Of a stretch of DNA of 64,000 bases, positions 2,899-58,858 are shown piece by piece; within the stretch, counting starts at the first letter, position 1, and the number at the start of each line of letters is the position of its first letter. Where the stretch lies: NCBI RefSeq assembly GCF_019801965.1, contig NZ_JAHVIA010000006.1, forward strand, positions 1-64,000, in the 5' to 3' direction. A model generated the notes under the pieces. The model was not told the DNA's origin. It worked only from the letters and a program-made list of their open reading frames with translations, and did no database searches. The DNA comes from Salipiger bermudensis. GTDB lineage: Bacteria > Pseudomonadota > Alphaproteobacteria > Rhodobacterales > Rhodobacteraceae. The position numbers and the translations under genes were made by a program.

Positions 2899-4900
<2,002 letters not shown>

Positions 4901-22422: not shown

Positions 22423-22756
22423 TTCTGAGCCTTTCGGCGAGCGGTCCCTGACCGGCCCGCCGCCGCGGCACTGAGCGCAAGAGGTGCCCGCCCCGGCCCC
22501 TCGACAAGCCGCCCACCTTCTCCCCGCTTTACCACCCCCGCCACGCGGCGCCGTAGCTGCGAAAATCCGGCCCGCCGGAAGCGGCAGATCTGCGTCAAAA
22601 TCCCAAGCTGGTATGGCGATCAGGCGAAACTTTCAGCCTGTATGGCCCGCATCGCTAAAAAAATATCCTTTGACTCAACGCGATCCGTTGCGGCTTTATG
22701 CATCCTTAAGGTGATTTTACCTTACGTAATCTTTAGCGGACCATTGGAGGGCACCC
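22423..22756 (+). promoter_or_regulatory. AT-rich promoter region of the RiPP-like cluster
   Basis: No gene is supported here. The last 110 bp are markedly AT-rich against the surroundings. A possible -35 TTGACT (22670-22675) with a weak -10 CTTTAT (22694-22699, 18-bp spacing) is followed by a perfect dyad TAAGGT-N6-ACCTTA (22707-22724) and the ribosome site GGAGG (22746-22750). The dyad lies just downstream of the candidate promoter, where a repressor would act. The promoter call is tentative; the dyad is exact. Confidence 0.45.
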
Positions 22757-23428
22757 ATGTCGAACGTCGCGGGAAAAGCCTATGCGATGAACGTGGTGAC
22801 CCCCAGTCGCCCCAGCGTCACCTGGATCAACCGATTGCTTTTCATGGCGGCGCGCGGCCTGCCGTCGAACCTGATGGGGCTGCTCGGGCTGTCGCTCATC
22901 CACTTCGCCAGATGGGTCATCATCAAGCGCGACCAGTGGCCCGATCTCGGCCAGGGCAAGGAGACGCTCGACAACGACTACATGCTGTTCTGCTCGAATT
23001 TCAACGGCACCTGGGACCAGTATATCGATGCCTTCTCCGACGGCATCCCGAACGGTCTGAACCTGTTCTGGTACTCGGCCAGCAAGTATCCGCTGTCGAT
23101 CCCGATCACCCCGTTCAAGAACTACATCACCTACAACCAGATCGGCACCGATTACTATTACAACGCCACCCCCGGCTCGGCGCAGCGCGACATCAAGTCG
23201 GCGCTGAAGGTCTATGACCAGGTGCTGAAGCTGGCCGAGGCGCATGGCAACGGCACGCCAGAGGCCTTCTCCAAGGCCTTCCGCGAGGCCTATCTCGAGA
23301 TCCAGAGCGATCTCGGCGATCCCGGCTTCGGGCCGGTCGCCAGCCTCGACACCGAGCGCGCCGACGTCAACCGGCTGGCCTATGTCGAGGCGGCGCAGGC
23401 CTGCTTCACCGCCAAGCGGGAGGCGTGA
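22757..23428 (+). CDS. Hypothetical protein, first gene of the RiPP-like cluster
   Basis: 223 residues from ATG 22757 with GGAGG seven bases upstream. I do not recognise the family. The N-terminus has a hydrophobic, possibly membrane-associated stretch (about 25-55). Aromatic-rich segments follow (FCSNFNGTWDQYIDAFSDGI, YNQIGTDYYYNATPGSAQRD), then a charged helical C-terminus. FNGxWDQYIDAFSDxIPxGL looks like a conserved block. The next gene starts one base after its stop, and the DyP peroxidase follows, so it probably works with that enzyme or its partner protein. Confidence 0.8.
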   Translation: MSNVAGKAYAMNVVTPSRPSVTWINRLLFMAARGLPSNLMGLLGLSLIHFARWVIIKRDQWPDLGQGKETLDNDYMLFCSNFNGTWDQYIDAFSDGIPNGLNLFWYSASKYPLSIPITPFKNYITYNQIGTDYYYNATPGSAQRDIKSALKVYDQVLKLAEAHGNGTPEAFSKAFREAYLEIQSDLGDPGFGPVASLDTERADVNRLAYVEAAQACFTAKREA

Positions 23429-23429
23429 C

Positions 23430-24443
23430 ATGGCCGATCTCGACACCGGACACCTGTTCCTGACCTACCTCGTTCCGATCAAGCGCGGCGGGCCGCATGG
23501 CGATGTCTCCTACAAGCAGAAGGTGCGCATCGAGCTCGCCCGCCTGCCGCCGGCACACCAGACCCCGGCAACCCAGAAGACCAAGTTCGCCGCGCCCTTC
23601 GCCCGCAACACCCGCAACCACTTCGCCCGAATGTTCGTGCTCGATGACGTGGTCTACAACGGCCGCAGCGCGCAGGATGCGCTGGTGGCGACGGTGAAGG
23701 GCGTGAACACCATCGTTCCCGGCCAGGTCGACCGGCTGCGCTCGGCCTACCTGGTCTTCACCGCCGATATCGACGCCATCGTGAAGGATGGCGATCCCCT
23801 TCCCGCGACGCTCAGCGCCGAGGAGCAGCGCAAGGTGCGGCTGGCCTATGCCCAGACGCTCTGGGACACGATGGGCGAGGAGATCGAGGCGATCTTCGAC
23901 AGCTGCCACGGCTTCGACGGCATCAAGGACGGCGCCGCCTTCGGCGCCTATCTCGAACGCTGCCACGTCGAGACGACGATGCCCTACCACGATTATTACC
24001 TCTCGCTGCCGGCCTTCAACACGCTGCCGCTCAAGGGTCTGATCGCCGCCGTGGGCATTCCGGCGGTGGTGGCGCTGGCGGCGCTGGTGCTGCGGATCCT
24101 CGGGGTGATCCACGTTCTTGGCATGAACACGCTGGGGCTCGCGCTGGTGGCGCTGGTGCTGACGGTGCTGGCCTTCCTGCTCTCGGTGCGCTTCGCACTC
24201 GCGAACGGCGCCAAGCCGCTGGCCCCGGCCCAGCATGACGACCTGCCCACCGTGCTCAAGGCGCTCTACACCCAGCAGGCCTTTGCCGATTTCATCGCCA
24301 CCAACCAGCACGCCCGGCCCGACGCGCTGCACGCGGCCTTCGGCGATTTCCTGAAACGGCACGCGCCGGGCGATGTCTCCGGCCCGACGCAGCAGCCGGG
24401 CGTGATCTCGGACGCGGCGCCGCAGCCGCGCGCCGGTCTGTGA
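23430..24443 (+). CDS. Hypothetical protein with two C-terminal membrane segments
   Basis: 337 residues from ATG 23430, one base after the previous stop. The family is unrecognised. Residues 1-195 are soluble, mixed alpha/beta (LFLTYLVPIKRG, HFARMFVLDDVVYNGRSAQD, LRSAYLVFTADIDAIV). Two hydrophobic helices at about 203-223 and 233-253 are followed by a cytoplasmic-looking tail. A soluble-TM-TM-soluble layout could anchor a multi-enzyme complex at the membrane; the P450-like protein of the same cluster also has a hydrophobic N-terminus. The DyP peroxidase gene starts 13 bases later. Confidence 0.8.
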   Translation: MADLDTGHLFLTYLVPIKRGGPHGDVSYKQKVRIELARLPPAHQTPATQKTKFAAPFARNTRNHFARMFVLDDVVYNGRSAQDALVATVKGVNTIVPGQVDRLRSAYLVFTADIDAIVKDGDPLPATLSAEEQRKVRLAYAQTLWDTMGEEIEAIFDSCHGFDGIKDGAAFGAYLERCHVETTMPYHDYYLSLPAFNTLPLKGLIAAVGIPAVVALAALVLRILGVIHVLGMNTLGLALVALVLTVLAFLLSVRFALANGAKPLAPAQHDDLPTVLKALYTQQAFADFIATNQHARPDALHAAFGDFLKRHAPGDVSGPTQQPGVISDAAPQPRAGL

Positions 24444-24456
24444 GGGAGGGAGAGCG

Positions 24457-26166
24457 ATGGTCGACCAGCTGAACCTGCACGATATCCAGGGCAACGTCAC
24501 CCGCGCCTACGGGCGCTTCTCCTTCCCATTCGCGCGCTACCTGTTCTTCCGCATCACCAACCCCGCGGGCGGGCGCGCCTTCGTCGATGCGGTGCGCAAG
24601 AAGGTCACCACCTCGGCGCGCTGGCCCGAGGAGGCCGACAAGCCCGAATGCACCGTCAACATCGCCTTCACTTTCATGGGGCTCTACTGGCTCGAGGTGC
24701 CCGACCGGACGCTGCAGGGCATGCCCGACGTGTTCATCTCCGGCATGCGCAGCCGCGCCTCGATGCTCGGTGACCGCGACCCGACCAAGACCGCCGATGA
24801 CGATCCCGACTGGGATCGCGACTGGGATCCGATCTGGCAGGGCAACCGAAAGGAGGGCAAGGGCGGCGCGGAGGACGTGCATATCCTCATCACCCTCAAC
24901 GCCCAGCCCGATCTCGGCGGCGCCGACCCCGAGACCCCTGAGGGTCTTGCCCGGCTGAAGCTGCCGCATCCCGAGCTCGAGGAGAAGACCGCGTGGCTGC
25001 GCTCGCTCACCGGCAGCGGCGTCGAGTTGATCGAGGCCAACGGCAAGGCGGGCGACCAGCCCTACCAGGCGGCCTCGGCGGTGTTCGACGATTTCGGCGG
25101 CCTCACCCTGCCGACCGCGCGCGAGCATTTCGGCTTCACCGACGGCATTGGCGACCCGGTGTTCAAGGGCCAGTATCCGAAAGAGACGGAGAAGACCGCC
25201 CTCATCGGCCGCGGCAAGCGCATGGGCGGTGACTGGGAGCCGCTGGAGCCGGGCGAGTTCATCCTCGGCCATCCCGGCGAGAGCCAGGAGCTGCCGCCCA
25301 CCGCGATGCCGCCCGAGTTCATGCAGAACGGCACCTTCATGGCCTACCGCAAGCTCCACGAGAACGTCGCGAGCTTCCACGAGGTGGTCGATGCCGAGGC
25401 CGCGCAATACGCCGAGTGCATGGGGGTCGACCTGCCGGAGGCGCGCGAGACCATCCTTGCAAAGATGTGCGGGCGCTGGTCCGACGGGGTGCCGCTGGCG
25501 GTTGTCCCGGGCTACGCCGAGTGGATCGCCTTCGGGCAGCAGGGCGGCTGGCGCGACGAGAGCGGTTCGATGCTGATGACCCCGATCGCCTGGGAGAAGA
25601 ACCTCGCCTATATCCGCAGCCCCGCGGCCTCGGATTTCCGCTATGCCGACGACATGGCGGGGTTCAAATGCCCCGGCGGCGCGCATATGCGGCGGATGAA
25701 CACCCGCGATTATCTCGACCCGCTGAACCAGTTCGGCATCGATCCCGAGACCGGCAAGCAGTTCGAGAATCCCAAGGCCACCCATGCCCTCAACAAGCGC
25801 CGCCGGGTGCTGCGCCGTGGCCTGCCCTACGGCCCGCCGAATTTCGAGCCGCGCGACGATGCCTCCGAACAGGGGGTGATCATGATGGTGATGGGGGTCG
25901 ACCTGTTCCGGCAGTTCGAGTTCGTGCAGCAGCAATGGATCCAGTACGGGCTCGATTTCCACCAGGGCAACAACACCTGCCCGATGCTCGGCCGCCACGA
26001 TCACCACACCCGCCACATGATCCCGTCCGACCCCAAGAGCGGTAAGCCGCCCTACATGATGACGCGGCTCAAGACCTTCGTGGAATGCCGCGGCGGCGAC
26101 TATTTCTTCGTGCCCTCGATGATCGCCCTGCGGATGATCGCGATGGGCATCGTCGATCCGACGTGA
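24457..26166 (+). CDS. DyP-type haem peroxidase
   Basis: 569 residues, longer than typical bacterial DyPs. Family landmarks: FGFTDGIGDP (catalytic Asp229 in the GxxDG motif), CPGGAHMRRMNTRD (proximal haem ligand His410) and the RRRVLRRGLPYG block that supplies the distal Arg. It also has GVIMMVMGVDLFRQFEFVQQ near the C-terminus. DyPs use peroxide to oxidise dyes, phenolics, Mn or peptide/iron-porphyrin substrates. There is no Tat or Sec signal, so it acts in the cytoplasm. Position inside a YcaO/SagB cluster suggests oxidative tailoring or protection rather than lignin-type chemistry (inference). Preceded by GGGAGGGAGAG. Confidence 0.92.
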   Translation: MVDQLNLHDIQGNVTRAYGRFSFPFARYLFFRITNPAGGRAFVDAVRKKVTTSARWPEEADKPECTVNIAFTFMGLYWLEVPDRTLQGMPDVFISGMRSRASMLGDRDPTKTADDDPDWDRDWDPIWQGNRKEGKGGAEDVHILITLNAQPDLGGADPETPEGLARLKLPHPELEEKTAWLRSLTGSGVELIEANGKAGDQPYQAASAVFDDFGGLTLPTAREHFGFTDGIGDPVFKGQYPKETEKTALIGRGKRMGGDWEPLEPGEFILGHPGESQELPPTAMPPEFMQNGTFMAYRKLHENVASFHEVVDAEAAQYAECMGVDLPEARETILAKMCGRWSDGVPLAVVPGYAEWIAFGQQGGWRDESGSMLMTPIAWEKNLAYIRSPAASDFRYADDMAGFKCPGGAHMRRMNTRDYLDPLNQFGIDPETGKQFENPKATHALNKRRRVLRRGLPYGPPNFEPRDDASEQGVIMMVMGVDLFRQFEFVQQQWIQYGLDFHQGNNTCPMLGRHDHHTRHMIPSDPKSGKPPYMMTRLKTFVECRGGDYFFVPSMIALRMIAMGIVDPT

Positions 26167-26176
26167 GGGCGCTTTG

Positions 26177-27523
26177 ATGCTGGCAAGGCTGACAGGATGC
26201 CTCATTACCCTCGCCCGCTTCGTCATGGTGTTGGTCGAGGGGCTGGCGGCGCTGGTCTGGCTGATCGCCAAGGGGGCCGCCGTCTTCGCCAAGGGCGGCA
26301 AGGCAGCGCTGACACCGTTCTTCACCGCCGCCGGGACGCAGGAGAAGGTCTTCGCGGTGCTGCGCGCCTTCTGGCCCAACCTGTCGCTCAAGGCGGTTCT
26401 GATGAAGGCCTATGACAATACCGGCACCGCCGTCGTCACCCGCCACGAGGATTGCATCGACGTATTGAACCGCAACGCGGATTTCGAGGTCGTCTATGGC
26501 CCGCGCATGCGCAAGCTGACCGGGGGCGAAAACTTCTTCCTCGGGATGCAGCCCGGCTGGGACTACACCCGCGACACCTCGGCGATGCGCCTCGCCGCCC
26601 GTCGCCCCGACGTGGCCGAGATCATCCTGCCGCGCGCCACCAAGCTCGCCGACGAGATCGTCGCCAATACCGGCGGCCGCATCGACGCCGTGCCCGAGCT
26701 GTTCCTGCAGGTGCCGTGGGACATGACCGACAGCTATTTCGGCGTTGGCGGAGAGCGCGAGACCATGCAGGACTGGACCACGGTGCTGTTCTGGTATCTC
26801 TTCGAGGACCTGCCCGCCGATCCCGAGCTCGACGCCCGCGCCGTGCGCTGCGCCGCCGGGCTGCGCGACTATCTCGACGGCGCCATCGCGGCGCGCAAGG
26901 CGGCCCCGAACGACCGCCCGCAGATCCTCAACCGCTGCCTCGCGCTGCAGGGCGCGGGCACGCCGGGGATGAGCGATCTCGGCATCCGCAACAACCTGCT
27001 GGGCCTGCTGATCGGGGCCATTCCCACGATCTCCAAGGCCTGCTGCCTCGCCCTCGACGAGCTGCTGAACCGGCCCGAGGAGCTGGCGGCGGCGCACCGG
27101 GCGGCGCTCAGCCATGACCCGGTCTTCGAGCAATATGTCTGGGAGGCTTTGCGCTTCAACCCGCACAACCCGGTGATCTACCGCCGCGCGCTGCACGACA
27201 CCGTGGTGGCGCGCTCGACCCTGCGCGAGGCGAAGATCCGCAAGGGCCAGATCGTCTTCGCCGCCACGCTCTCGGCAATGTTCGACCGCTACCGCATCGC
27301 CGATCCCACCGCCTTCCGCACCGACCGCGCCTGGGAGGATTACATCATCTGGGGCTACGGCATGCACACCTGCTTCGGGGCCGCGATCAACAAGGCGGTG
27401 ATCCCGGCGATCCTGCGGCCGCTCATCGCCCAGCCCAACCTGCGCCGCGCCGAGGGGCCCGCCGGCCAGATCGACACCGGCGGCACGCCACACCCGCAGC
27501 ATTTTCATCTGCTCTACGACTGA
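26177..27523 (+). CDS. Membrane-anchored cytochrome P450-like protein
   Basis: 448 residues from ATG 26177. A long hydrophobic N-terminus (about 8-36) is unusual for bacterial P450s. The K-helix ExxR is present (EALR, E323/R326) and the haem-ligand loop reads WGYGMHTCFG with Cys399, a variant of FGxGxHxCxG. The I-helix region GLLIGAIPTI (276-285) lacks the usual acid-alcohol pair used in O2 activation. It may therefore be a peroxygenase-like or otherwise divergent P450, which would fit the adjacent peroxidase. A TTG three bases earlier is an alternative start. It sits between the DyP and GST-like genes. Confidence 0.85.
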   Translation: MLARLTGCLITLARFVMVLVEGLAALVWLIAKGAAVFAKGGKAALTPFFTAAGTQEKVFAVLRAFWPNLSLKAVLMKAYDNTGTAVVTRHEDCIDVLNRNADFEVVYGPRMRKLTGGENFFLGMQPGWDYTRDTSAMRLAARRPDVAEIILPRATKLADEIVANTGGRIDAVPELFLQVPWDMTDSYFGVGGERETMQDWTTVLFWYLFEDLPADPELDARAVRCAAGLRDYLDGAIAARKAAPNDRPQILNRCLALQGAGTPGMSDLGIRNNLLGLLIGAIPTISKACCLALDELLNRPEELAAAHRAALSHDPVFEQYVWEALRFNPHNPVIYRRALHDTVVARSTLREAKIRKGQIVFAATLSAMFDRYRIADPTAFRTDRAWEDYIIWGYGMHTCFGAAINKAVIPAILRPLIAQPNLRRAEGPAGQIDTGGTPHPQHFHLLYD

Positions 27524-27532
27524 AGGCCCGCC

Positions 27533-28330
27533 ATGTCCCTGCCGCTCCTCGTGACCCTGCTGCCCTCCACCGATGTCGATCTCGGGCGCTGGCTGCTGAG
27601 CCATTACGGCGTCGCCTATCAGGAGCGGCCGCACGCGCCGATCTTCCACGTGCTGGCGCTGAAGAGCTGGGGCGTCAGCGCGGAGGGCTACCCGCTGCTG
27701 GTCTCGGCCGACCGCAAGACCAAATCGGCGGGCATCGAGGCGATCCGCGACGTGCTCGAGCCGCAAGCCGCGCCCGGCACGCGGCTCTGGCCCGACGAGA
27801 GCACCGAGCCCGAACGCTGGAAAGAGGTCGACAGCCTGCAGCACGACGCCCGGTTCGGCATCGGCGGCGCGGTGGTCGAATGGTCCTACTGGAACCTGCT
27901 GAAATACAAGTCGGTGGTCTGGCCCTCGCTGACCACGGGCGTGCCGTGGTACGAGACGCTGACCCTGCGCGTCGCCTTCCCGGTGATCCGGGCGCTGATG
28001 TACAAGGGGCTCAAGCTCGATCAGGGCGTCGCCGACGCCGCGCTCGAGACCATCCATGCCGGGTTCGACAGGCTCGATGCGCGGCTCTCGGACGGGCGCC
28101 GCTACCTGCTGGGCGACAGCCTGACCTTCGCCGATCTCGCCACTGCTGCCTCGCTTGCGCCGATGGTGCTGGCGCAGGGCTATCACGGCATGCTGCCGCT
28201 CGAGGCGCGCTGTCCGGTCTTCATGCAGGAGATCTACAAGCCCCTGCGCCAGCGCCCAACGGGACGCTTCATCCAGCGCCTCTACGACACCCATCGCGCC
28301 CCGCAGCTGCTGCAATTGCGCTCATCTTAG
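27533..28330 (+). CDS. Glutathione S-transferase-like protein
   Basis: 265 residues from ATG 27533. The C-terminal part has the GST all-helical hallmark (RLSDGRRYLLGDSLTFADLA, the N-capping box with Asp, then a long helix). The N-terminal half has a thioredoxin-like start (LPLLVTLLPSTDVDLGRWLL) but is divergent, with an insertion near residues 100-150. A glutathione-using step, such as thiol conjugation or isomerisation, is plausible in a pathway with Cys-derived groups. This is inference. It lies ten bases after the P450-like gene, and a likely promoter for the precursor follows. Confidence 0.75.
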   Translation: MSLPLLVTLLPSTDVDLGRWLLSHYGVAYQERPHAPIFHVLALKSWGVSAEGYPLLVSADRKTKSAGIEAIRDVLEPQAAPGTRLWPDESTEPERWKEVDSLQHDARFGIGGAVVEWSYWNLLKYKSVVWPSLTTGVPWYETLTLRVAFPVIRALMYKGLKLDQGVADAALETIHAGFDRLDARLSDGRRYLLGDSLTFADLATAASLAPMVLAQGYHGMLPLEARCPVFMQEIYKPLRQRPTGRFIQRLYDTHRAPQLLQLRSS

Positions 28331-28354
28331 AGGTGATCCGACCGCACTCTACAG

Positions 28355-28383
28355 TTTCAAATTGATCCTGTTAGCGGTATAAC
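28355..28383 (+). promoter_or_regulatory. Candidate separate promoter for the precursor gene
   Basis: TATAAC (28378-28383) is a good -10 match. TTTCAA (28355-28360) stands 17 bp upstream as a weak -35. The whole 28331-28433 gap is strikingly AT-rich for this genome and precedes a strong ribosome site. A private promoter would allow the precursor to outnumber its enzymes. Confidence 0.4.
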
Positions 28384-28433
28384 AACTATACGATGATTTG
28401 ATTCGCTAATTGCAACTTTGGGAGGAGTTTCTT

Positions 28434-29507
28434 TTGGCCGATAATGCACAAGACGAGTCCGCCGACACGCCGGAGGGCCCGGACGAGACCGCGCTCATTC
28501 TCGCCGATCTCGCGCTCCGCGCCCGACAAGACCCCAAATATTATGACGAGCTCAAAGCCGCCAAGGCGGCAGATCTGAAGGAGCTTGGGCTCTCGGATCT
28601 GACCCTCGCGGAGTTCAGAAAACGCCTTTCCTCAACCATCGATCAGATAGGAGCATTAGAGATGGCCATGCAGCAAGCTGGAACGTCGGCGGCGACGATG
28701 GGATCCTCGACACAGGCCGGTGGCACCGCCGCCTCGGTCGGCACCGTAGGCTCGGTGGGAAGCGTCTGCGGCACCGCGGCAACCTTCGCGACCGCCGGCA
28801 GCGCCGGCACGGCCGGGGCCGCCTCGACACCGCTCGGCAGCGGTGCGCCACAGGGCGCGGCAGCGACCTCGGTAACGATCGCGAGCCTGCGGCCGCCGCC
28901 GCCCTGCCTGCCCTGCGGCACCATCGCGACCCTGCCGCCTCCTCCCCCGCCGCCCTGCCTGCCCTGCGGGACGATCGCGACCACGCCGCCGCCTCCGCCG
29001 CCCTGCGCCACGATCGCAACCATGCCACCGCCGCCGCCGCCCTGCCTGCCCTGCGGCTCGGTCGCCAGCATCATGGCGCCGTCGGCGCAAAGCGGCGACG
29101 CGACCCAGGCCGGCGGCACCGCCGGCAGCGCCGGCACCGCGGGCTGCCTCGGCTCGGTCTGCGGCACCGCGGGCTCGGCCTTCACCGTGGGCAGCGTCGG
29201 ATCGGCAGGCGCCGCCTCGACGCCACTTGGCGGCAGCGGCATGGGTGACAGCTCGACCCAGGCAGGCGGCACGGCGGGCACCGCCGGAAGCGTCGGCAGC
29301 GTCGGATGCTTCTGTGGCACCGCCGGCACCTTCGCCTGCGGCGGCACCGTGGGCTCCGCCGGTGCGGCCTCGACACCGCTCGGCGCCGACAGCTCAACGC
29401 AATCGGGCGCCACCTGGGGCAGCGCCGCCACCGCGGGCTGCGTCGGCACCTTCTGCGGCACCGCCGGCTCGATCGGCAGCGCCGGTACCGCCGGCTCCAA
29501 GAGCTGA
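28434..29507 (+). CDS. Putative RiPP/TOMM precursor, 357 residues, repetitive Cys/Ser/Thr/Gly-rich core
   Basis: Start at TTG 28434, chosen because GGGAGGAG lies 6 bases upstream; the alternative TTG 28410 lies upstream of that site. Residues 1-83 are charged and helical and look like a leader (RARQDPKYYDELKAAK, LKELGLSDLTLAEFRKRL), with a spacing reminiscent of NHLP/Nif11 leaders. Residues 84-357 have almost no charged side chains and 15 Cys. Modules of about 50 residues recur (about 93-135, 224-266, 275-317, 322-357), with TQAGGTAG, GSVxCGTAG and GAASTPLG. A polyproline block (154-212) repeats PPPPCLPCGTIAT-like units. The gene immediately precedes the cyclodehydratase and SagB-type genes, which makes it the candidate substrate. 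It could instead be a structural protein, since its size is exceptional for a TOMM. Confidence 0.75.
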   Translation: MADNAQDESADTPEGPDETALILADLALRARQDPKYYDELKAAKAADLKELGLSDLTLAEFRKRLSSTIDQIGALEMAMQQAGTSAATMGSSTQAGGTAASVGTVGSVGSVCGTAATFATAGSAGTAGAASTPLGSGAPQGAAATSVTIASLRPPPPCLPCGTIATLPPPPPPPCLPCGTIATTPPPPPPCATIATMPPPPPPCLPCGSVASIMAPSAQSGDATQAGGTAGSAGTAGCLGSVCGTAGSAFTVGSVGSAGAASTPLGGSGMGDSSTQAGGTAGTAGSVGSVGCFCGTAGTFACGGTVGSAGAASTPLGADSSTQSGATWGSAATAGCVGTFCGTAGSIGSAGTAGSKS

Positions 29508-29516
29508 GCTCTCCTC

Positions 29517-29547
29517 GGAGCGGCCCGCATCTCCTGCAGGCCGCTCC
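29517..29547 (+). terminator. Hairpin after the precursor gene (first of two)
   Basis: GGAGCGGCC (29517-29525) pairs perfectly with GGCCGCTCC (29539-29547), 13-nt loop, starting 10 bases after the precursor stop. A second GC-rich hairpin follows. Partial termination here would keep enzyme levels below precursor levels, as in many RiPP loci. Confidence 0.6.
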
Positions 29548-29551
29548 TCCA

Positions 29552-29576
29552 GCGCCCCTCGCCCGGCGGGGGGCGC
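29552..29576 (+). terminator. Second GC-rich hairpin between precursor and cyclodehydratase genes
   Basis: GCGCCCC (29552-29558) and GGGGCGC (29570-29576) with an 11-nt loop, followed by gcgctttccc with only a short T run. Together with 29517-29547 it looks like an attenuator or mRNA-processing site. Confidence 0.5.
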
Positions 29577-29617
29577 GCTTTCCCACATTCCCAGTCCCAC
29601 GCCGCCGAGTGAGCTCC

Positions 29618-31876
29618 ATGCACCCGATCCAACGCCCTGTCATCAAGTCGAAATACGTCGTCGTTCCGGTCTCGGGCGAGGGCATCTATCTGCTTAGCGA
29701 GAACGAGAAACACGTGCTCGAGGGCGAGACCATGATGCAGCTCGTGCCGCTGCTCGACGGGCAGCGCGGCTGGCCGGAGATCCACGCCACGCTCGCCCCC
29801 GCGCTCGGGCCCGACGCGGTTGGCCAGGGCATCGAGGTGCTGCTTGCCAACGCCCATGTGGAGGAGGCGCAACCCGATGACCGGCGCCGCTTCCAGATCT
29901 TCTGGACCGAGCTCGGCCTCAGCCCGCAGGCCACCGCCGAGCTCCTGGCGCGCACCAACGTGCATGTCGTGCCGCTCGGCGAGGTCTCCGCGCAGGCGGC
30001 GCTGCAGGGGCTGGCCTCGCTCGGGCTGCAGGCCGACCCGCAGCGCATGGCCTCGTTCACGCTGGTGCTGACCGACGATTACGAGAACCCCAGGCTCGCC
30101 GAGATCAACCGCCACATGCTGGCCACCGGCGCGCCGTGGATGCTGGTAAAGCCGCGCGGCCTGCTGCCGCTCGCCGGGCCGGTCTTCCGCCCCAACTCCG
30201 GCGGCTGCTGGGCCTGCCTCGCCACCTGGCTGCGCCACAACCGCGAGGTCGAGACCTATGTCCGCCGCCGCACCGGGCAGGAGGCCCCCTACAGCACCTC
30301 GCGCGCCGAGGTGCCGCTTGGCGAGACGCAGGCGATCTCGCTGGCGCTGTTGCAGATGGCACGGCTGCTGGCCCGCGCCGAGAGCCCGGTGATGGACGGG
30401 CGGCTGGTGGCGATCGACACGCTGACCGGCGAACAGAGCCACCACGCCGTCACCCGCCGTCCGCAATGCCCGGACTGCGGCGATCCCGCCTGCGCCCGGG
30501 TCGCGGGCCGTCCGGTGGTACTCTCGGAGGGGCTTGGCCGGGTCGCCAACGAGAACGGATTCCGCCCCGAGGCACCAGAGATCACCTACCAGCGCTACCA
30601 GCATCTGGTCTCGCCGCTGACCGGGGTGATCAAGGCGGTCTACCCGATCCCGGCCTCGTTCTCGACACCGATCCGCTCCTACATGGCAGGGCACAACTTC
30701 GCGCTCAAGAACGATCACCTGTTCTTCCTCAAGGACGGGCTCCGCACCCATTCCTCCGGCAAGGGCAAGACCGATGCGCAGGCCCGCACCTCGGCGCTCT
30801 GCGAGGCGCTCGAGCGCTACTCCGGCACCTTCCGGCAGGAGGAGGAGTGCATTCAGGCAAGCTTTGCCGAGCTTGGCGACGAGGCCGTCGATCCCCGCGA
30901 TGTCATGCTCTACAGCGAGCGCCAATATGCCGAGCGCGATACCTGGAACGCCAAGGGGGCGCGCTTCCAGGTGGTGCCGCAGCCCTTCGACGAGACCGCG
31001 CGGATCTCGTGGTCACCGGTCTGGTCCTGGACGCAGGAGCGGCGGCGGCTGATTCCGACATCGCTGGCCTATTACAACGTCAACGAGGGCGACAATGCCT
31101 TCTACTGCTGGGGCGACAGCAACGGCGCCGCGGCCGGCGGCAATCTCGAGGACGCGCTGCTTCAGGGCGCGCTCGAGGTGATCGAGCGTGACGGTGTGGC
31201 GATCTGGTGGATGAACCGGCTGTCGCGCCCCGGCGTCGATCTCGAGAGCTTCGGCGATCCGTATGTCGAGGAGCTGAAGGCCTTCTACGCCGCCTGCGAC
31301 CGCGAGTTCTGGGTGCTCGACCTGACCAACGACATGGGCATCCCCTGCATGGCGGCGATCAACCGCCGGCTCTCGGGCGCGAGCGAGGATATCGTCATGG
31401 GCTTCGGCGCCCATCTCGACCCCCGCATCGCGCTGTCGCGCTGCCTCACGGAGATGAACCAGTTCATGCCGGCGGTGCTGAGCGTGAACCCCGATGGCAG
31501 CACGCTCTATGCCTATGACGACCCCGACTCGCTGGAGTGGTGGCGCACGGCGACGCTGGAGAACCAGCCCTATCTCAAGCCCTCGCGGGCGAAGAAACGC
31601 AGACCGGAGGATTTCGACTTCAAGGCCGAGGGTTCGGTTTCCGACAACGTACGCAAGGTTTTCGGCCAGTTCGAGGACCTCGGCCACGAGGTGCTGATCC
31701 TCGACCAGTCGCGCCCCGATATCGGCCTGCCTGTGGCCAAGGTCATCGTGCCGGGGATGCGGCATTTCTGGGCGCGCCACGCGCCGGGGCGGCTCTATGA
31801 CGTGCCGGTCAAGATGGGCTGGCGCAAGGCGCCGCTGACGGAGGACGGCCTCAACCCGGTCGCGATGTTCATATGA
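29618..31876 (+). CDS. Fused E1-like/YcaO cyclodehydratase (TOMM C+D protein)
   Basis: 752 residues from ATG 29618; a GTG at 29609 is an alternative. Residues 1-90 form a winged-helix-like leader-recognition segment. About 95-320 is the E1-like partner domain with four zinc-type cysteines (CWAC 197-200, CPDC 284-287, plus Cys292). About 325-752 is the YcaO domain. Its ATP-binding signatures are GKGKTDAQARTSALCEALERY (381-401; E396, E399) and QGALEVIERDGVAIWW (E520, E523). This three-part layout is that of cyanobactin LynD/TruD-type enzymes, which phosphorylate the peptide backbone and cyclise Cys/Ser/Thr to azolines. The C-terminus (GLNPVAMFI) lacks the Pro-x-Pro-x-Pro tail seen in many azoline YcaOs. 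It overlaps the SagB gene by ATGA. Confidence 0.93.
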   Translation: MHPIQRPVIKSKYVVVPVSGEGIYLLSENEKHVLEGETMMQLVPLLDGQRGWPEIHATLAPALGPDAVGQGIEVLLANAHVEEAQPDDRRRFQIFWTELGLSPQATAELLARTNVHVVPLGEVSAQAALQGLASLGLQADPQRMASFTLVLTDDYENPRLAEINRHMLATGAPWMLVKPRGLLPLAGPVFRPNSGGCWACLATWLRHNREVETYVRRRTGQEAPYSTSRAEVPLGETQAISLALLQMARLLARAESPVMDGRLVAIDTLTGEQSHHAVTRRPQCPDCGDPACARVAGRPVVLSEGLGRVANENGFRPEAPEITYQRYQHLVSPLTGVIKAVYPIPASFSTPIRSYMAGHNFALKNDHLFFLKDGLRTHSSGKGKTDAQARTSALCEALERYSGTFRQEEECIQASFAELGDEAVDPRDVMLYSERQYAERDTWNAKGARFQVVPQPFDETARISWSPVWSWTQERRRLIPTSLAYYNVNEGDNAFYCWGDSNGAAAGGNLEDALLQGALEVIERDGVAIWWMNRLSRPGVDLESFGDPYVEELKAFYAACDREFWVLDLTNDMGIPCMAAINRRLSGASEDIVMGFGAHLDPRIALSRCLTEMNQFMPAVLSVNPDGSTLYAYDDPDSLEWWRTATLENQPYLKPSRAKKRRPEDFDFKAEGSVSDNVRKVFGQFEDLGHEVLILDQSRPDIGLPVAKVIVPGMRHFWARHAPGRLYDVPVKMGWRKAPLTEDGLNPVAMFI

Positions 31877-33210
31877 GCGGGCCCGAGATGCGCGCCGTGC
31901 TCCGCCGCGAGGGGTTCGAGGCCAACGCGCCCCGCGCCCTCGCCGCCACCGGCCTGCTCGGCGACCGCGCCAGCCACGCGCTGCACGAGGGGCTGGCCAA
32001 TGGCGGCGTGTCGCTGGCCGATGCCAGACCGCCCGAGCGCGCCGCCATCGAGCAGCTCGCCCGCGGCGGCCTCGTGGCCTTTCGCGACAGCGAGGACGTG
32101 GCGACACTGCTGCCCGTCGCCGATAGCTTCGCGCTCGGTCCCGACGATCCGCTGGTTGAGGCCGAGCGCTGGAAGCTGTCGAAGTTCCAGTATGTCCAGA
32201 GCGAGGGCGGCCAGCCGGTGGCGCGCTCGGCGCTGGGGCTCGCGATGGTGCAGATCCACGACCCCGCCGCGCTGGCACTCATGGGCCGCTTCACCGTGGC
32301 CAGCGCCCCGGGCGAGGCGCTCGAGAAAGGCGATCTCGGCAATCGCGGCGCCGGGTTCCTCGGGCTGCTGGCCTGCGCCGGCATCCTCTTGCCCTGCGAT
32401 GGCGAGGGCCGCACCGCCGACGAGACCGACGACCAGCGCCGGATGTGGGATTTCCACGAGCTGGTCTATCACAGCCGCAGCCGCCTTGGCCGCTCGGGCT
32501 TCCGCGTCGGCGCCACCTGGGAGTTCCGCGACGAGATCCCGCAGCCCCCGCTCCTGCGCGACAGCCCGTGGCGCGACAACGGCGCCATCCCGCTCTACCG
32601 CCCGATGGTGCTGTCGCGCGACATGCCGCTCTTCGAGGCGATGGAGACCCGCCGCTCGGTGCGCGCCTACAGCCCCGCCCCGATCACCGCGTGGGAGCTC
32701 GGCGAGTTCCTCTACCGCACCATGCGGGTGCGCTCGCACGTCAAGACCGGCGAGCACGAGATCACCTCGCGCCCCTATCCCAACGGCGGCGGCCTCTATG
32801 AGCAGGAGCTCTACGTCACCGTCGAGGCCTGCGCCGACCTGCCGCGCGGCTTCTACCACTACGACCCCAAGGCCCACGCGCTCTGCCCGATCAGCCCGCC
32901 CGATGCCGACATGGCCATGCTGGTCGAGGAGGCGGTGAGCGCCACTGCAGGGCTGGGTCGGCCACAGATCCTCTTCACCATCGCCAGCCGCTTCGGCGGC
33001 TTCAACTGGAAGTACTCGGCCATGTGCTACGCGGCGCAGCTCAAGAATGTCGGTGCGATCTACCAGACCATGTATCTCGTCGCGACGGCGATGGGGCTCG
33101 GCGGCTGCGGGCTGGGGCTCGGCAATGCCGACCGCTTCGCCCGGATGACCGGGCATGACTACGCGACCGAAGGCTCGATCGGGGAGTTCATGATCGGCCG
33201 CCCGCTCTGA
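31873..33210 (+). CDS. SagB/ThcOx-type FMN-dependent azoline dehydrogenase
   Basis: 445 residues. The N-terminal 230 residues are a second, divergent nitroreductase-like or recognition half. The C-terminal half is the catalytic FMN fold: METRRSVRAYSPAPI (FMN phosphate contacts, R260-S267), RPYPNGGGLYEQELYV (300-315), then ALxxGxIyQxxYLVATAMGLGGCGLG. This is the classic SagB pattern. It oxidises thiazolines and oxazolines on the precursor to thiazoles and oxazoles. The gene overlaps the cyclodehydratase stop by four bases, so the two are translationally coupled and almost certainly act on the same peptide. Confidence 0.93.
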   Translation: MSGPEMRAVLRREGFEANAPRALAATGLLGDRASHALHEGLANGGVSLADARPPERAAIEQLARGGLVAFRDSEDVATLLPVADSFALGPDDPLVEAERWKLSKFQYVQSEGGQPVARSALGLAMVQIHDPAALALMGRFTVASAPGEALEKGDLGNRGAGFLGLLACAGILLPCDGEGRTADETDDQRRMWDFHELVYHSRSRLGRSGFRVGATWEFRDEIPQPPLLRDSPWRDNGAIPLYRPMVLSRDMPLFEAMETRRSVRAYSPAPITAWELGEFLYRTMRVRSHVKTGEHEITSRPYPNGGGLYEQELYVTVEACADLPRGFYHYDPKAHALCPISPPDADMAMLVEEAVSATAGLGRPQILFTIASRFGGFNWKYSAMCYAAQLKNVGAIYQTMYLVATAMGLGGCGLGLGNADRFARMTGHDYATEGSIGEFMIGRPL

Positions 33211-33239
33211 CACCGCCTGCCACGAAGGAGAAGACGACC

Positions 33240-34784
33240 ATGGTTTCCTACACCCAGAGCCCGCTGCTGTCCTCCCTTCGCGGCCGCCTGCCCGGCGTTC
33301 CCGCCGAGGCCCGCGAGGCGCTATGCGACCAGCTCGAGATCGGCATGCGCGAGCTCTACACCCACCTGCCGCAGAAGATGTCGGCCTTCGGCATCGACCC
33401 GATCGCACAGCTGCGTGCGCTCAAGGCCAACAGGCAGGCGAATTTCACCCGACGCCTGCTCCGCATCATCAACGGCCTGAAGGACCGCCACACCACCCTG
33501 CGGATGCCACCGCCCTGGTCGGCGCTGGTGGCCTACGTGCCCTTCGTGATCGAACGGGTCTATTGCGAGGACCGGCCGCATTACGTCGTCACCAAGCAGC
33601 TCTTCGGCTACGACGAGATCCCGGTCGGCGCCACCGTCACCCACTGGAACGGCACGCCGATCCACCTGCATGTCAACGCGCTGGCGCGCGACACGCAGGG
33701 CTCGAACTGGGCCGCGGCAATGCGGCTGGCGATGGCCAACCTGACGATCCGGCCACTGGCCTACGTGCTGATGCCGGGTGAGGACTGGGTGACGATCAAT
33801 TACATCGAGCCCGATGGCACCGCCCGCGCCGTCACCACGCCGTGGCGCTTCTACTCGACCGCTGCCGGGGCGCAGAGCCATGGCGGGGTGAAGGCGGGCG
33901 AGGTGCCCGCCACGGCGCTCAGTGTCGGGCTCGACGAGCAGACGCTGCTGTCGAACAAGTTCCGCTCGATCGCGCAGAAGCCGCCAGAGAAAGAGCGCGA
34001 GGCGCTGACCACCGACGGCATCCTGCGCTACGGGGTGGTGCATAGCCCGAGCGGGCGCAGCGGCTATCTGCGGATCTTCAGCTTCGAGGTGCAAGACCCC
34101 GGCGCCTTCCTAAAGAAGCTCGCCGGCATTCTCGAAAACCTGCCGCAGGACCGGTTGGTGATCGACCTGCGCGGCAATCCTGGCGGCCAGATCCCCGCCG
34201 GGCAAGGCCTGATCCGCATGCTGACCGCGAAGCCCCTGACCCCCGCGCCCATCGCCTTCCGTGCCACGCCCACCACGCTCGGCCTTGCCGCCGCCCCGGC
34301 CTTCCAGGAATGGCGCCGCTCGCTGGAGCTGCAAAGCGCGACCTCGAACGTCTGGGCGCAGGCCTTCCCCATCGCGCCCTATTACGACAACGTGCCGCCC
34401 TACCGCTTCCCCGGCAAGGTGGCCATCGTCATCGACGCGCTGTGCTATTCGACCACCGATTTCTTCGCCGCCGATTTCGCCGACAACGAGATCGGCCCGG
34501 TGATCGGCATCGATTTCAGCACCGGCGCCGGCGGGGCCAATGTCTGGCCCTGGTCGGTGCTGGTGAACTACACCCGCTTTCTCGGGATCCCGGGCCCCGC
34601 GCCCCTGCCCTCGGGCTTCGATCTCAATATCTCGATGCGCCGCGCCTACCGCACCGGGGCGAGCGCCGGGCTACCGATCGAGGATCTCGGCATCCGGGCG
34701 CAGATCCTGCACCGACAGACCATGCGCGACCTGCTCGAGGACAATGTCGATCTCATCGCCCGCGCGGTGGCGAGCATCGCCTGA
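33240..34784 (+). CDS. S41-family peptidase-like protein
   Basis: 514 residues from ATG 33240 with AAGGAG 9 bases upstream. A C-terminal processing/tricorn-type fold is indicated by LVIDLRGNPGGQIPAG (306-321) and by AIVIDALCYSTTDFFAADF, where Ser404 is the nucleophile position. A helical N-terminal region (about 20-90) and a beta-rich domain (about 95-200) precede it. There is no signal peptide, so it should be cytoplasmic. As the last gene of the cluster it is the best candidate for leader removal or for cutting between the core repeats (inference). I cannot confirm the Lys or Glu partners of the catalytic Ser. Confidence 0.82.
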   Translation: MVSYTQSPLLSSLRGRLPGVPAEAREALCDQLEIGMRELYTHLPQKMSAFGIDPIAQLRALKANRQANFTRRLLRIINGLKDRHTTLRMPPPWSALVAYVPFVIERVYCEDRPHYVVTKQLFGYDEIPVGATVTHWNGTPIHLHVNALARDTQGSNWAAAMRLAMANLTIRPLAYVLMPGEDWVTINYIEPDGTARAVTTPWRFYSTAAGAQSHGGVKAGEVPATALSVGLDEQTLLSNKFRSIAQKPPEKEREALTTDGILRYGVVHSPSGRSGYLRIFSFEVQDPGAFLKKLAGILENLPQDRLVIDLRGNPGGQIPAGQGLIRMLTAKPLTPAPIAFRATPTTLGLAAAPAFQEWRRSLELQSATSNVWAQAFPIAPYYDNVPPYRFPGKVAIVIDALCYSTTDFFAADFADNEIGPVIGIDFSTGAGGANVWPWSVLVNYTRFLGIPGPAPLPSGFDLNISMRRAYRTGASAGLPIEDLGIRAQILHRQTMRDLLEDNVDLIARAVASIA

Positions 34785-58345: not shown

Positions 58346-58858
58346 TCAGCCCAGAATGATGTCGGAGGCGTCGAAACTGGCGACGGCATCCTCGAGCACC
58401 GCGATGGCGACGCCGTCACCATAGATGGTCACATCGGTGCCGTCGTCGGAGAAGGTGACTTCCGAGAAGCCTTCCACGAGCAGGCTGTCGCCATCCGAGA
58501 AATCGGCCACGACATCGACCGCATCCGCGGTTGCGGCCTTAAAGACGAAGGTGTCGTCGCCGCTTCCGCCGACGAGGGTGTCCGCGCCAAGATCGCCCGA
58601 GAGAACGTCGGCACCAGCGTCGCCGGTGACGTAGTCGTCGCCCTGACCGCCGAAGACCGTGTCCCGGCCGGTTCCGCCACGAACCACGTCAGCGCCCTGG
58701 CCGCCGAGCAGGACATCCGAGCCGCCGCCGCCAAGGATCGTATCGTCGCCGCCATTGCCGGCAATCGTGTCCGAACCATTGAGTCCGATGATCTCTTCGC
58801 TCTCATCGCCGCCGTTGAGAGAGTCTGCTACGATCCCGGCTTCACCAATGATGGGCAT
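58346..58858 (-). CDS. Small RTX calcium-binding protein
   Basis: 170 residues from ATG 58858, with AGGAGG 9 bases upstream. Residues about 17-100 are back-to-back RTX nonapeptides (GLNGSDTIAGNGGDDTILGG and following) that form a Ca-loaded parallel beta-roll. Residues 105-170 form the beta-rich cap with DTFVFKAATADAVDVVADFS, typical of T1SS substrates. There is no enzymatic domain and no signal peptide. It lies beside polysaccharide genes and is one of three RTX genes in the window, so a matrix-associated role is plausible (inference). Confidence 0.88.
   Translation of the reverse strand: MPIIGEAGIVADSLNGGDESEEIIGLNGSDTIAGNGGDDTILGGGGSDVLLGGQGADVVRGGTGRDTVFGGQGDDYVTGDAGADVLSGDLGADTLVGGSGDDTFVFKAATADAVDVVADFSDGDSLLVEGFSEVTFSDDGTDVTIYGDGVAIAVLEDAVASFDASDIILG

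Follow-up and report, generated by a model that had tools for sequence, protein, structure and literature searches.

In the biosynthetic systems closest to the one described here, which make azole-containing ribosomally synthesized and posttranslationally modified peptides (RiPPs), a leader docks on a RiPP recognition element (RRE), YcaO forms azolines, and SagB-type enzymes oxidize them, as laid out in PMC12455567 and PMC4603692. PMC4603692 also gives a rule of under 150 amino acids for RiPP precursors and describes the cores of nitrile hydratase leader peptide (NHLP) products and cyanobactins as hypervariable. Here, we focused on a 64,000-nucleotide stretch of Salipiger DNA (contig NZ_JAHVIA010000006.1, positions 1 to 64,000; referred to as the window), in which an earlier note made from the sequence had seen a nine-gene candidate RiPP cluster. 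We propose that positions 28434 to 34784 hold a self-contained four-gene azole-RiPP cassette, which would yield azole peptides from a giant repeat precursor far larger than the rule allows, and that the adjoining haem-protein genes form an independent operon that came to lie beside it by chance in two Salipiger species. We assign this joint reading a probability of roughly 0.7.

Inspection of the open reading frames confirmed nine plus-strand genes at 22757 to 34784, separated by gaps of 1 to 29 nt or, for YcaO and SagB, overlapping by 4 nt; the exceptions flank the precursor gene, with ∼103 nt on its upstream side and 110 nt on its downstream side. These genes are two separable modules: the haem module (22757 to 28330), which encodes the proteins g1 and g2, a DyP peroxidase, a P450, and a GST-like protein, and the azole cassette (∼28434 to 34784), which encodes the precursor, an E1/YcaO fusion, a SagB dehydrogenase, and an S41 peptidase. 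The domain assignments of the earlier note (E1/YcaO, SagB, S41, DyP, P450, GST, and two unrecognized proteins) agree with our family scans. Comparison with S. bermudensis (genome G251) shows purifying selection on each of the nine genes (dN/dS of 0.07 to 0.18; 0.136 for the precursor). The host genome (4.8 Mb in 32 contigs) was found to contain one YcaO.

The cassette opens with the precursor gene (28434 to 29507), whose most likely start is the TTG at 28434, 6 nt behind the ribosome-binding site GGGAGGAG (28420 to 28427). The predicted protein has 357 amino acids, with a leader at about residues 1 to 85 and repeats thereafter; across cassettes, precursor sizes range from ∼296 to 643 amino acids. 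It had been described as a repetitive protein rich in Cys, Ser, and Thr, which is right, though Cys has the smallest share (15 Cys, 36 Ser, and 38 Thr, next to 54 Gly, in the window core). Cys, Ser, and Thr recur at lag 3, with a z score of 4.7 in the window and of 4.7 to 14.8 over 10 full-length giant precursors out of 12. The underlying unit has 32 residues, x-([CST]-x-x)5 followed by G-([CST]-x-x)5, where place 16 is C or G; its Cys, Ser, and Thr stand mostly behind Gly. Counting by a plain pattern, we found 34 exact units in 9 of the 12 precursors, while shuffled precursors averaged 0.0. There are six units in Devosia sp., four each in the window, S. bermudensis, Pseudorhodobacter, Shimia, and Roseovarius, three each in Aestuariibacter and D. 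nitrariae, and two in Tenacibaculum; the exact pattern count was 0 in the Bradyrhizobium, Sinorhizobium, and partial Silicimonas precursors. All 34 units share Gly17, Ala19, and Gly29. The unit is conserved between phyla, and the Tenacibaculum precursor retains it at a third-position GC content of 0.13.

The window units lie at 28722 to 28817 (residues 97 to 128), 29115 to 29210 (residues 228 to 259), 29268 to 29363 (residues 279 to 310), and 29409 to 29504 (residues 326 to 357), and each holds 10 to 11 possible ring positions. A repeat search also found a proline-rich stretch of PPPPC..CGTIAT segments (family D2) at 28893 to 29070; among the cassette precursors compared, these repeats were not seen as such outside Salipiger. 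The linker S-[ST]-x-L-[SGTR] recurs between units, 2 to 6 times per precursor in the 10 full-length giants versus 0.11 to 0.28 expected; the window has 3, as STPLG. Long variable spacers separate the units in Shimia and Roseovarius.

The modification enzymes follow. In the fused cyclodehydratase (29618 to 31876; start corrected), the YcaO part matches PF02624 (E value, 3e-97) and exceeds the cutoff of TIGR03604, and the E1-like/RRE part scores 149 bits with TIGR03882 against a cutoff of 36.9; its nearest solved structures are LynD (E value, 6e-171), MusD, and TruD. The SagB-type flavin mononucleotide dehydrogenase (31873 to 33210) exceeds the cutoff of TIGR03605, and the S41 peptidase (33240 to 34784), the presumed maturation protease, exceeds that of PF03572. 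The peptidase has a chlamydial S41 protease as its nearest solved structure (E value, 5e-6) and, judged by eye, no obvious signal sequence. Invariant in 12 of 12 cassettes are H84, S404, and E481 of S41, K380-Y381 of SagB, and E396, E399, and R400 of YcaO, all of which we presume to be catalytic from the roles known in their families, together with four Cys residues of the E1-like part.

To see how far this arrangement extends, we fetched 79 YcaO loci. YcaO, SagB, and S41 stand in this order in at least 11 of them, or 12 cassettes with the window; 11 is a lower bound, as the alignment census kept the best 80 of at least 534 candidates. The cassette occurs without the haem module in 10 further named taxa, of which eight are Alphaproteobacteria, one is a gammaproteobacterium, and one belongs to the Bacteroidota. 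Immediately upstream of YcaO, each of the 11 loci (10 of them outside Salipiger) has a repeat precursor, although it is partial in locus L111 and of another repeat type in L105, which supports the earlier proposal of a YcaO/SagB azole-RiPP cassette with the repetitive protein as its precursor. No further gene was common to more than 4 of the 12 loci in the visible flanks, a result limited by the heuristic gene caller, which missed the precursor in L088, L093, L095, and L105; the L088, L090, and L111 loci end at contig ends. On a YcaO tree with 87 rows, a single change accounts for all 12 rows linked to S41, and none of 500 shuffles gave so low a number; their branch has a support of 40 with the Sinorhizobium row (L105) and of 100 for the other 11 rows. 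A search for S41 within the class matched 8 of 385 genomes at an E value of 0.001, with one strong match besides the window's own (G272; E value, 8e-50); the 6.8-kb contig that carries it has neither YcaO nor SagB. An S41 relative lies beside a patatin-like protein at 355 to 2319 of L080, a short contig without YcaO or SagB. Two other fetched loci hold likely precursors that are unannotated: one in Methylovirgula with Cys-Gly-His repeats (L085, 8810 to 9295) and one in Bradyrhizobium sp. 155 with an NHLP-like leader and a CCCCCPPCCSCCG core (L086, upstream of 7369).

The earlier note could match the cluster to no known class of thiazole/oxazole-modified microcins (TOMMs). The class can nevertheless be placed, as the YcaO belongs to the fused type known from LynD and TruD and the leader appears to trace back to NHLP-type leaders by way of its Sinorhizobium and Devosia relatives. 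The Sinorhizobium leader matches the NHLP model TIGR03793 (E value, 1.2e-9; 37.9 bits, under the cutoff of 50.9) and reaches the cutoff of PF02979 (nitrile hydratase alpha). The NHLP-clan matches of the Devosia leaders are weak; that of L093 is to TIGR04351 (E value, 8.6e-5, under cutoff).

The haem module has a distribution of its own. It opens with g1 (22757 to 23428), which has 70 to 79% identical homologues in 10 other genera, and g2 (23430 to 24443; start corrected to right behind g1). We found no family match for g1 up to an E value of 0.1 and only a Dirigent match under cutoff for g2 (E value, 0.014); their structure models are of low confidence (pLDDT of 52 and 65), and none of 49 matches in a fold search with g2 reached an E value of ≤0.001. 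The DyP-type peroxidase (24457 to 26166) exceeds the cutoff of DyP_N, while TIGR01413 stays under its own (62.9 versus 100.5 bits); its GxxDG motif is present in 11 of 13 aligned DyP proteins. The P450 (26174 to 27523) exceeds the cutoff of PF00067 and has the haem-binding CxG. An acid usually precedes the I-helix Thr of P450s; since Pro takes its place in this protein, as it does in 10 of 10 aligned P450s, these enzymes may use peroxide. The GST-like protein (27533 to 28330), which exceeds the cutoff of GST_C_2, closes the module.

We searched 14 loci fetched around g1 homologues by tblastn with all nine proteins. g1, g2, and DyP follow in order in 11 of them, from 10 genomes that each represent another genus of the Rhodobacteraceae, with g2 always behind g1; the P450 adjoins them in some loci and the GST in 4 of the 14. 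YcaO, SagB, or S41 was found in none of the 14. In L020, one of the 11, the DyP match is split into three pieces, and L028 is a second, diverged g1-g2-DyP copy (g1 and DyP 40 to 50% identical) in a genome that also holds L022. The recurrent operon g1-g2-DyP(-P450(-GST)), noted in the window and in L017 to L028, L084, and L176, includes two protein families without an assigned function. Among 20 Salipiger genomes, g1 occurs in 3 and YcaO in 2; the third g1-bearing genome (G262) has g1, g2, DyP, and P450 at 77 to 86% identity and neither the GST nor the azole cassette. A search of plasmid sequences with g1 gave one record, a Granulicella plasmid with g1-g2-DyP and no YcaO, SagB, or S41 partner.

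Seen from the cassette, g1, g2, DyP, and GST occur in 1 of the 79 best-scoring YcaO loci, that of S. bermudensis, and are absent from the locus in 10 of 10 non-Salipiger relatives with YcaO-SagB-S41; g1 lies elsewhere in the genome in one of these 10 (Shimia, on another contig). The earlier note had held that YcaO-SagB pairs lacking both the repetitive and the haem genes would count against it; these relatives lack g1, g2, DyP, and GST, and all 10 have the repeat precursor. A family-wide search, in which up to three first-look YcaO candidates were scored per genome, gave YcaO matches in 24 genomes at an E value of 0.001; the 13 other genomes that match g1 are all missing from this set. Both S41 and the haem module are absent from seven YcaO loci of the same family that are more distantly related. 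Membership of the haem genes in this RiPP class, as the note had proposed, is not supported, as each module recurs without the other, and the co-occurrence of all nine genes that it suggested checking is confined to two Salipiger genomes, with the modules apart elsewhere.

Haem tailoring of the azole product is thus unsupported as a feature of the class, but a single nine-gene pathway could still operate in Salipiger, with DyP, P450, and GST further oxidizing or conjugating the product. S. bermudensis has all nine genes in the same order at 89 to 95% protein identity; DNA similarity with the window spans 22659 to 34784 and ends there, the flanks being different (32.5 kb of that contig compared), and dS is similar in both modules (0.27 to 0.38 in the haem module and 0.37 to 0.49 in the cassette). 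This suggests that the modules were probably joined before the two species split. Their having stayed together in both is what speaks most strongly for a shared role. A P450 in such a pathway is also plausible given the P450 fused to SagB in an azole cluster of Thalassospira marina. Set against this are the g1-g2-DyP loci of other genera, of G262, and of the Granulicella plasmid, as well as the cassettes of the 10 other taxa. The conserved noncoding stretch of ∼70 nt ahead of the precursor gene (28355 to 28433) further hints at a separate promoter, although a promoter consensus scan of it gave no support (2 sites versus 1.0 expected, otherwise no excess over shuffles). On balance, we consider a nine-gene pathway improbable, even within Salipiger.

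For the four-gene cassette as a self-contained system, the observed genes, linkage, conserved residues, repeats, selection, and separability of the modules allow us to infer chemistry, cleavage sites, and product. The 357-residue precursor would be translated as an ∼85-residue leader with four core units, and the E1/YcaO fusion would bind the leader and cyclodehydrate many Cys, Ser, and Thr residues, advancing along several units of one chain. SagB would then oxidize the azolines to azoles, and the S41 peptidase, of the Ser-His-Glu type, would take off the leader. It might also cleave the S-[ST]-x-L-[SGTR] linkers, giving several conserved azole peptides per chain.

Several points weigh against this proposal. 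The 32-residue pattern was written after viewing the sequences, so the shuffle test was not blind. The Bradyrhizobium precursor, 41% identical overall to that of the window, has period-3 repeats of another type and no Cys, so thiazoles cannot be general to the class; the Sinorhizobium precursor has yet another repeat type, with a lag-3 z score of −0.4. No NHLP model matches the leader of the window precursor, and the linkage of nine genes in two Salipiger species argues somewhat against mere adjacency. Finally, no exporter or immunity gene is conserved in the visible flanks of the 12 loci as judged by heuristic gene calls, and no protein of the window's genome exceeds the cutoff of the NHLM exporter model TIGR03796 (best, 345 of 853 bits), as anticipated by the earlier note, which had seen no dedicated exporter. 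The TRAP-transporter genes upstream of the locus lie outside the conserved set. Elsewhere in the window, on the minus strand, an ABC-transporter-like stretch (3246 to 4448; TIGR03796 under cutoff) and a GGxGxD-type repeat protein (58346 to 58858) are possibly a type I secretion pair.

The lack of an exporter would suit a precursor that is left uncut, with S41 removing the leader only, so that a long polyazole protein is kept in the cell as a structural or a metal- or redox-binding polymer. The conservation of the core between phyla, set against the hypervariable cores of NHLP products and cyanobactins, points the same way, whereas the recurrent linkers resemble processing sites and the units of Shimia and Roseovarius are separated by long variable spacers; we regard this outcome as unlikely. 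Slightly more doubtful still is its fullest form, a new kind of bacterial material consisting of a giant and conserved polyazole protein, derived largely from Ser and Thr, retained in the cell and made by a minimal, mobile, exporterless cassette rather than a secreted small peptide. That the repeat protein is no YcaO substrate at all, being instead an unmodified low-complexity or surface protein with the true precursor elsewhere, is highly improbable, since, although domain library scans up to an E value of 0.1 assigned the window precursor to no family and some other TOMMs have precursors encoded at a distance (PMC2674419), the gene lies directly upstream of YcaO in every cassette locus, the Sinorhizobium leader matches NHLP models, and of 248 family genomes searched for a second such gene, 4 matched, 3 of them spuriously with stop codons, leaving none credible besides the window's own.

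If the cassette works as proposed, a single set of enzymes acts on dozens of residues of the same very long chain, making it a good system for studying how YcaO works again and again at sites remote from the leader, and S41 peptidases become candidates for RiPP maturation. That the core is conserved from Alphaproteobacteria to a gammaproteobacterium and a member of the Bacteroidota would then indicate one preserved target or material property. With the pathway corrected, work on the product should start from four genes, not nine.

On sequence evidence, the TOMM identity of the cassette is strong: a YcaO cyclodehydratase, its fused E1-like/RRE partner, and an adjacent precursor with a leader and a core rich in Cys, Ser, Thr, and Gly are all present. 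NHLP (proteusin-leader) TOMMs such as Mpr, as described in PMC12455567, likewise combine a fused YcaO with a flavin dehydrogenase, and leader homology appears to be traceable by way of the relatives. However, Mpr has 81-amino-acid leaders, short cores, and ten precursor genes, whereas the cassette has one giant multiunit precursor, an S41 peptidase, and no NHLM exporter, and the window leader is beyond the reach of NHLP models. Cyanobactins (LynD, TruD, and MusD) share the YcaO fusion type and several cores per precursor, but the nine proteins include no PatA or PatG subtilisin-type protease, the peptidase is S41, the cores are conserved, and the host is not cyanobacterial. Heterocycloanthracin (TIGR03601) likewise has a core of tripeptides with a heterocyclizable residue at every third place, though according to PMC2674419 its precursor has 88 residues with Cys-Xaa-Xaa, compared with ∼300 to 640 residues and mainly Ser/Thr here; its leader was absent from the NCBIfam matches of the window precursor up to an E value of 1. 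The thiocillin family model NF033482 exceeds its cutoff on the Pseudorhodobacter, Shimia, and Thalassospira precursor units (3 of 10 scanned; 2 of 8 relatives) and scores 12.8 bits on the window precursor against a cutoff of 25; domain scans found no thiopeptide dehydratase or pyridine synthase family among the nine proteins. A plasmid cluster of Thalassospira marina (L082, 5252 to 16035), which comprises LanM, a small NHLP precursor, a YcaO fusion, a SagB-P450 fusion, and an S53 peptidase, has a YcaO 44% identical to that of the window and a precursor core, SCAGSAGSASCPSCSAGTA, that resembles one unit; it differs in its LanM synthetase, S53 in place of S41, and 105-amino-acid precursor. We found no description of this cassette in the literature searched, which lacked most subscription journals. 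Its novelty lies in joining a giant precursor, a conserved period-3 unit, and an S41 peptidase in a minimal set of four genes across distant bacteria.

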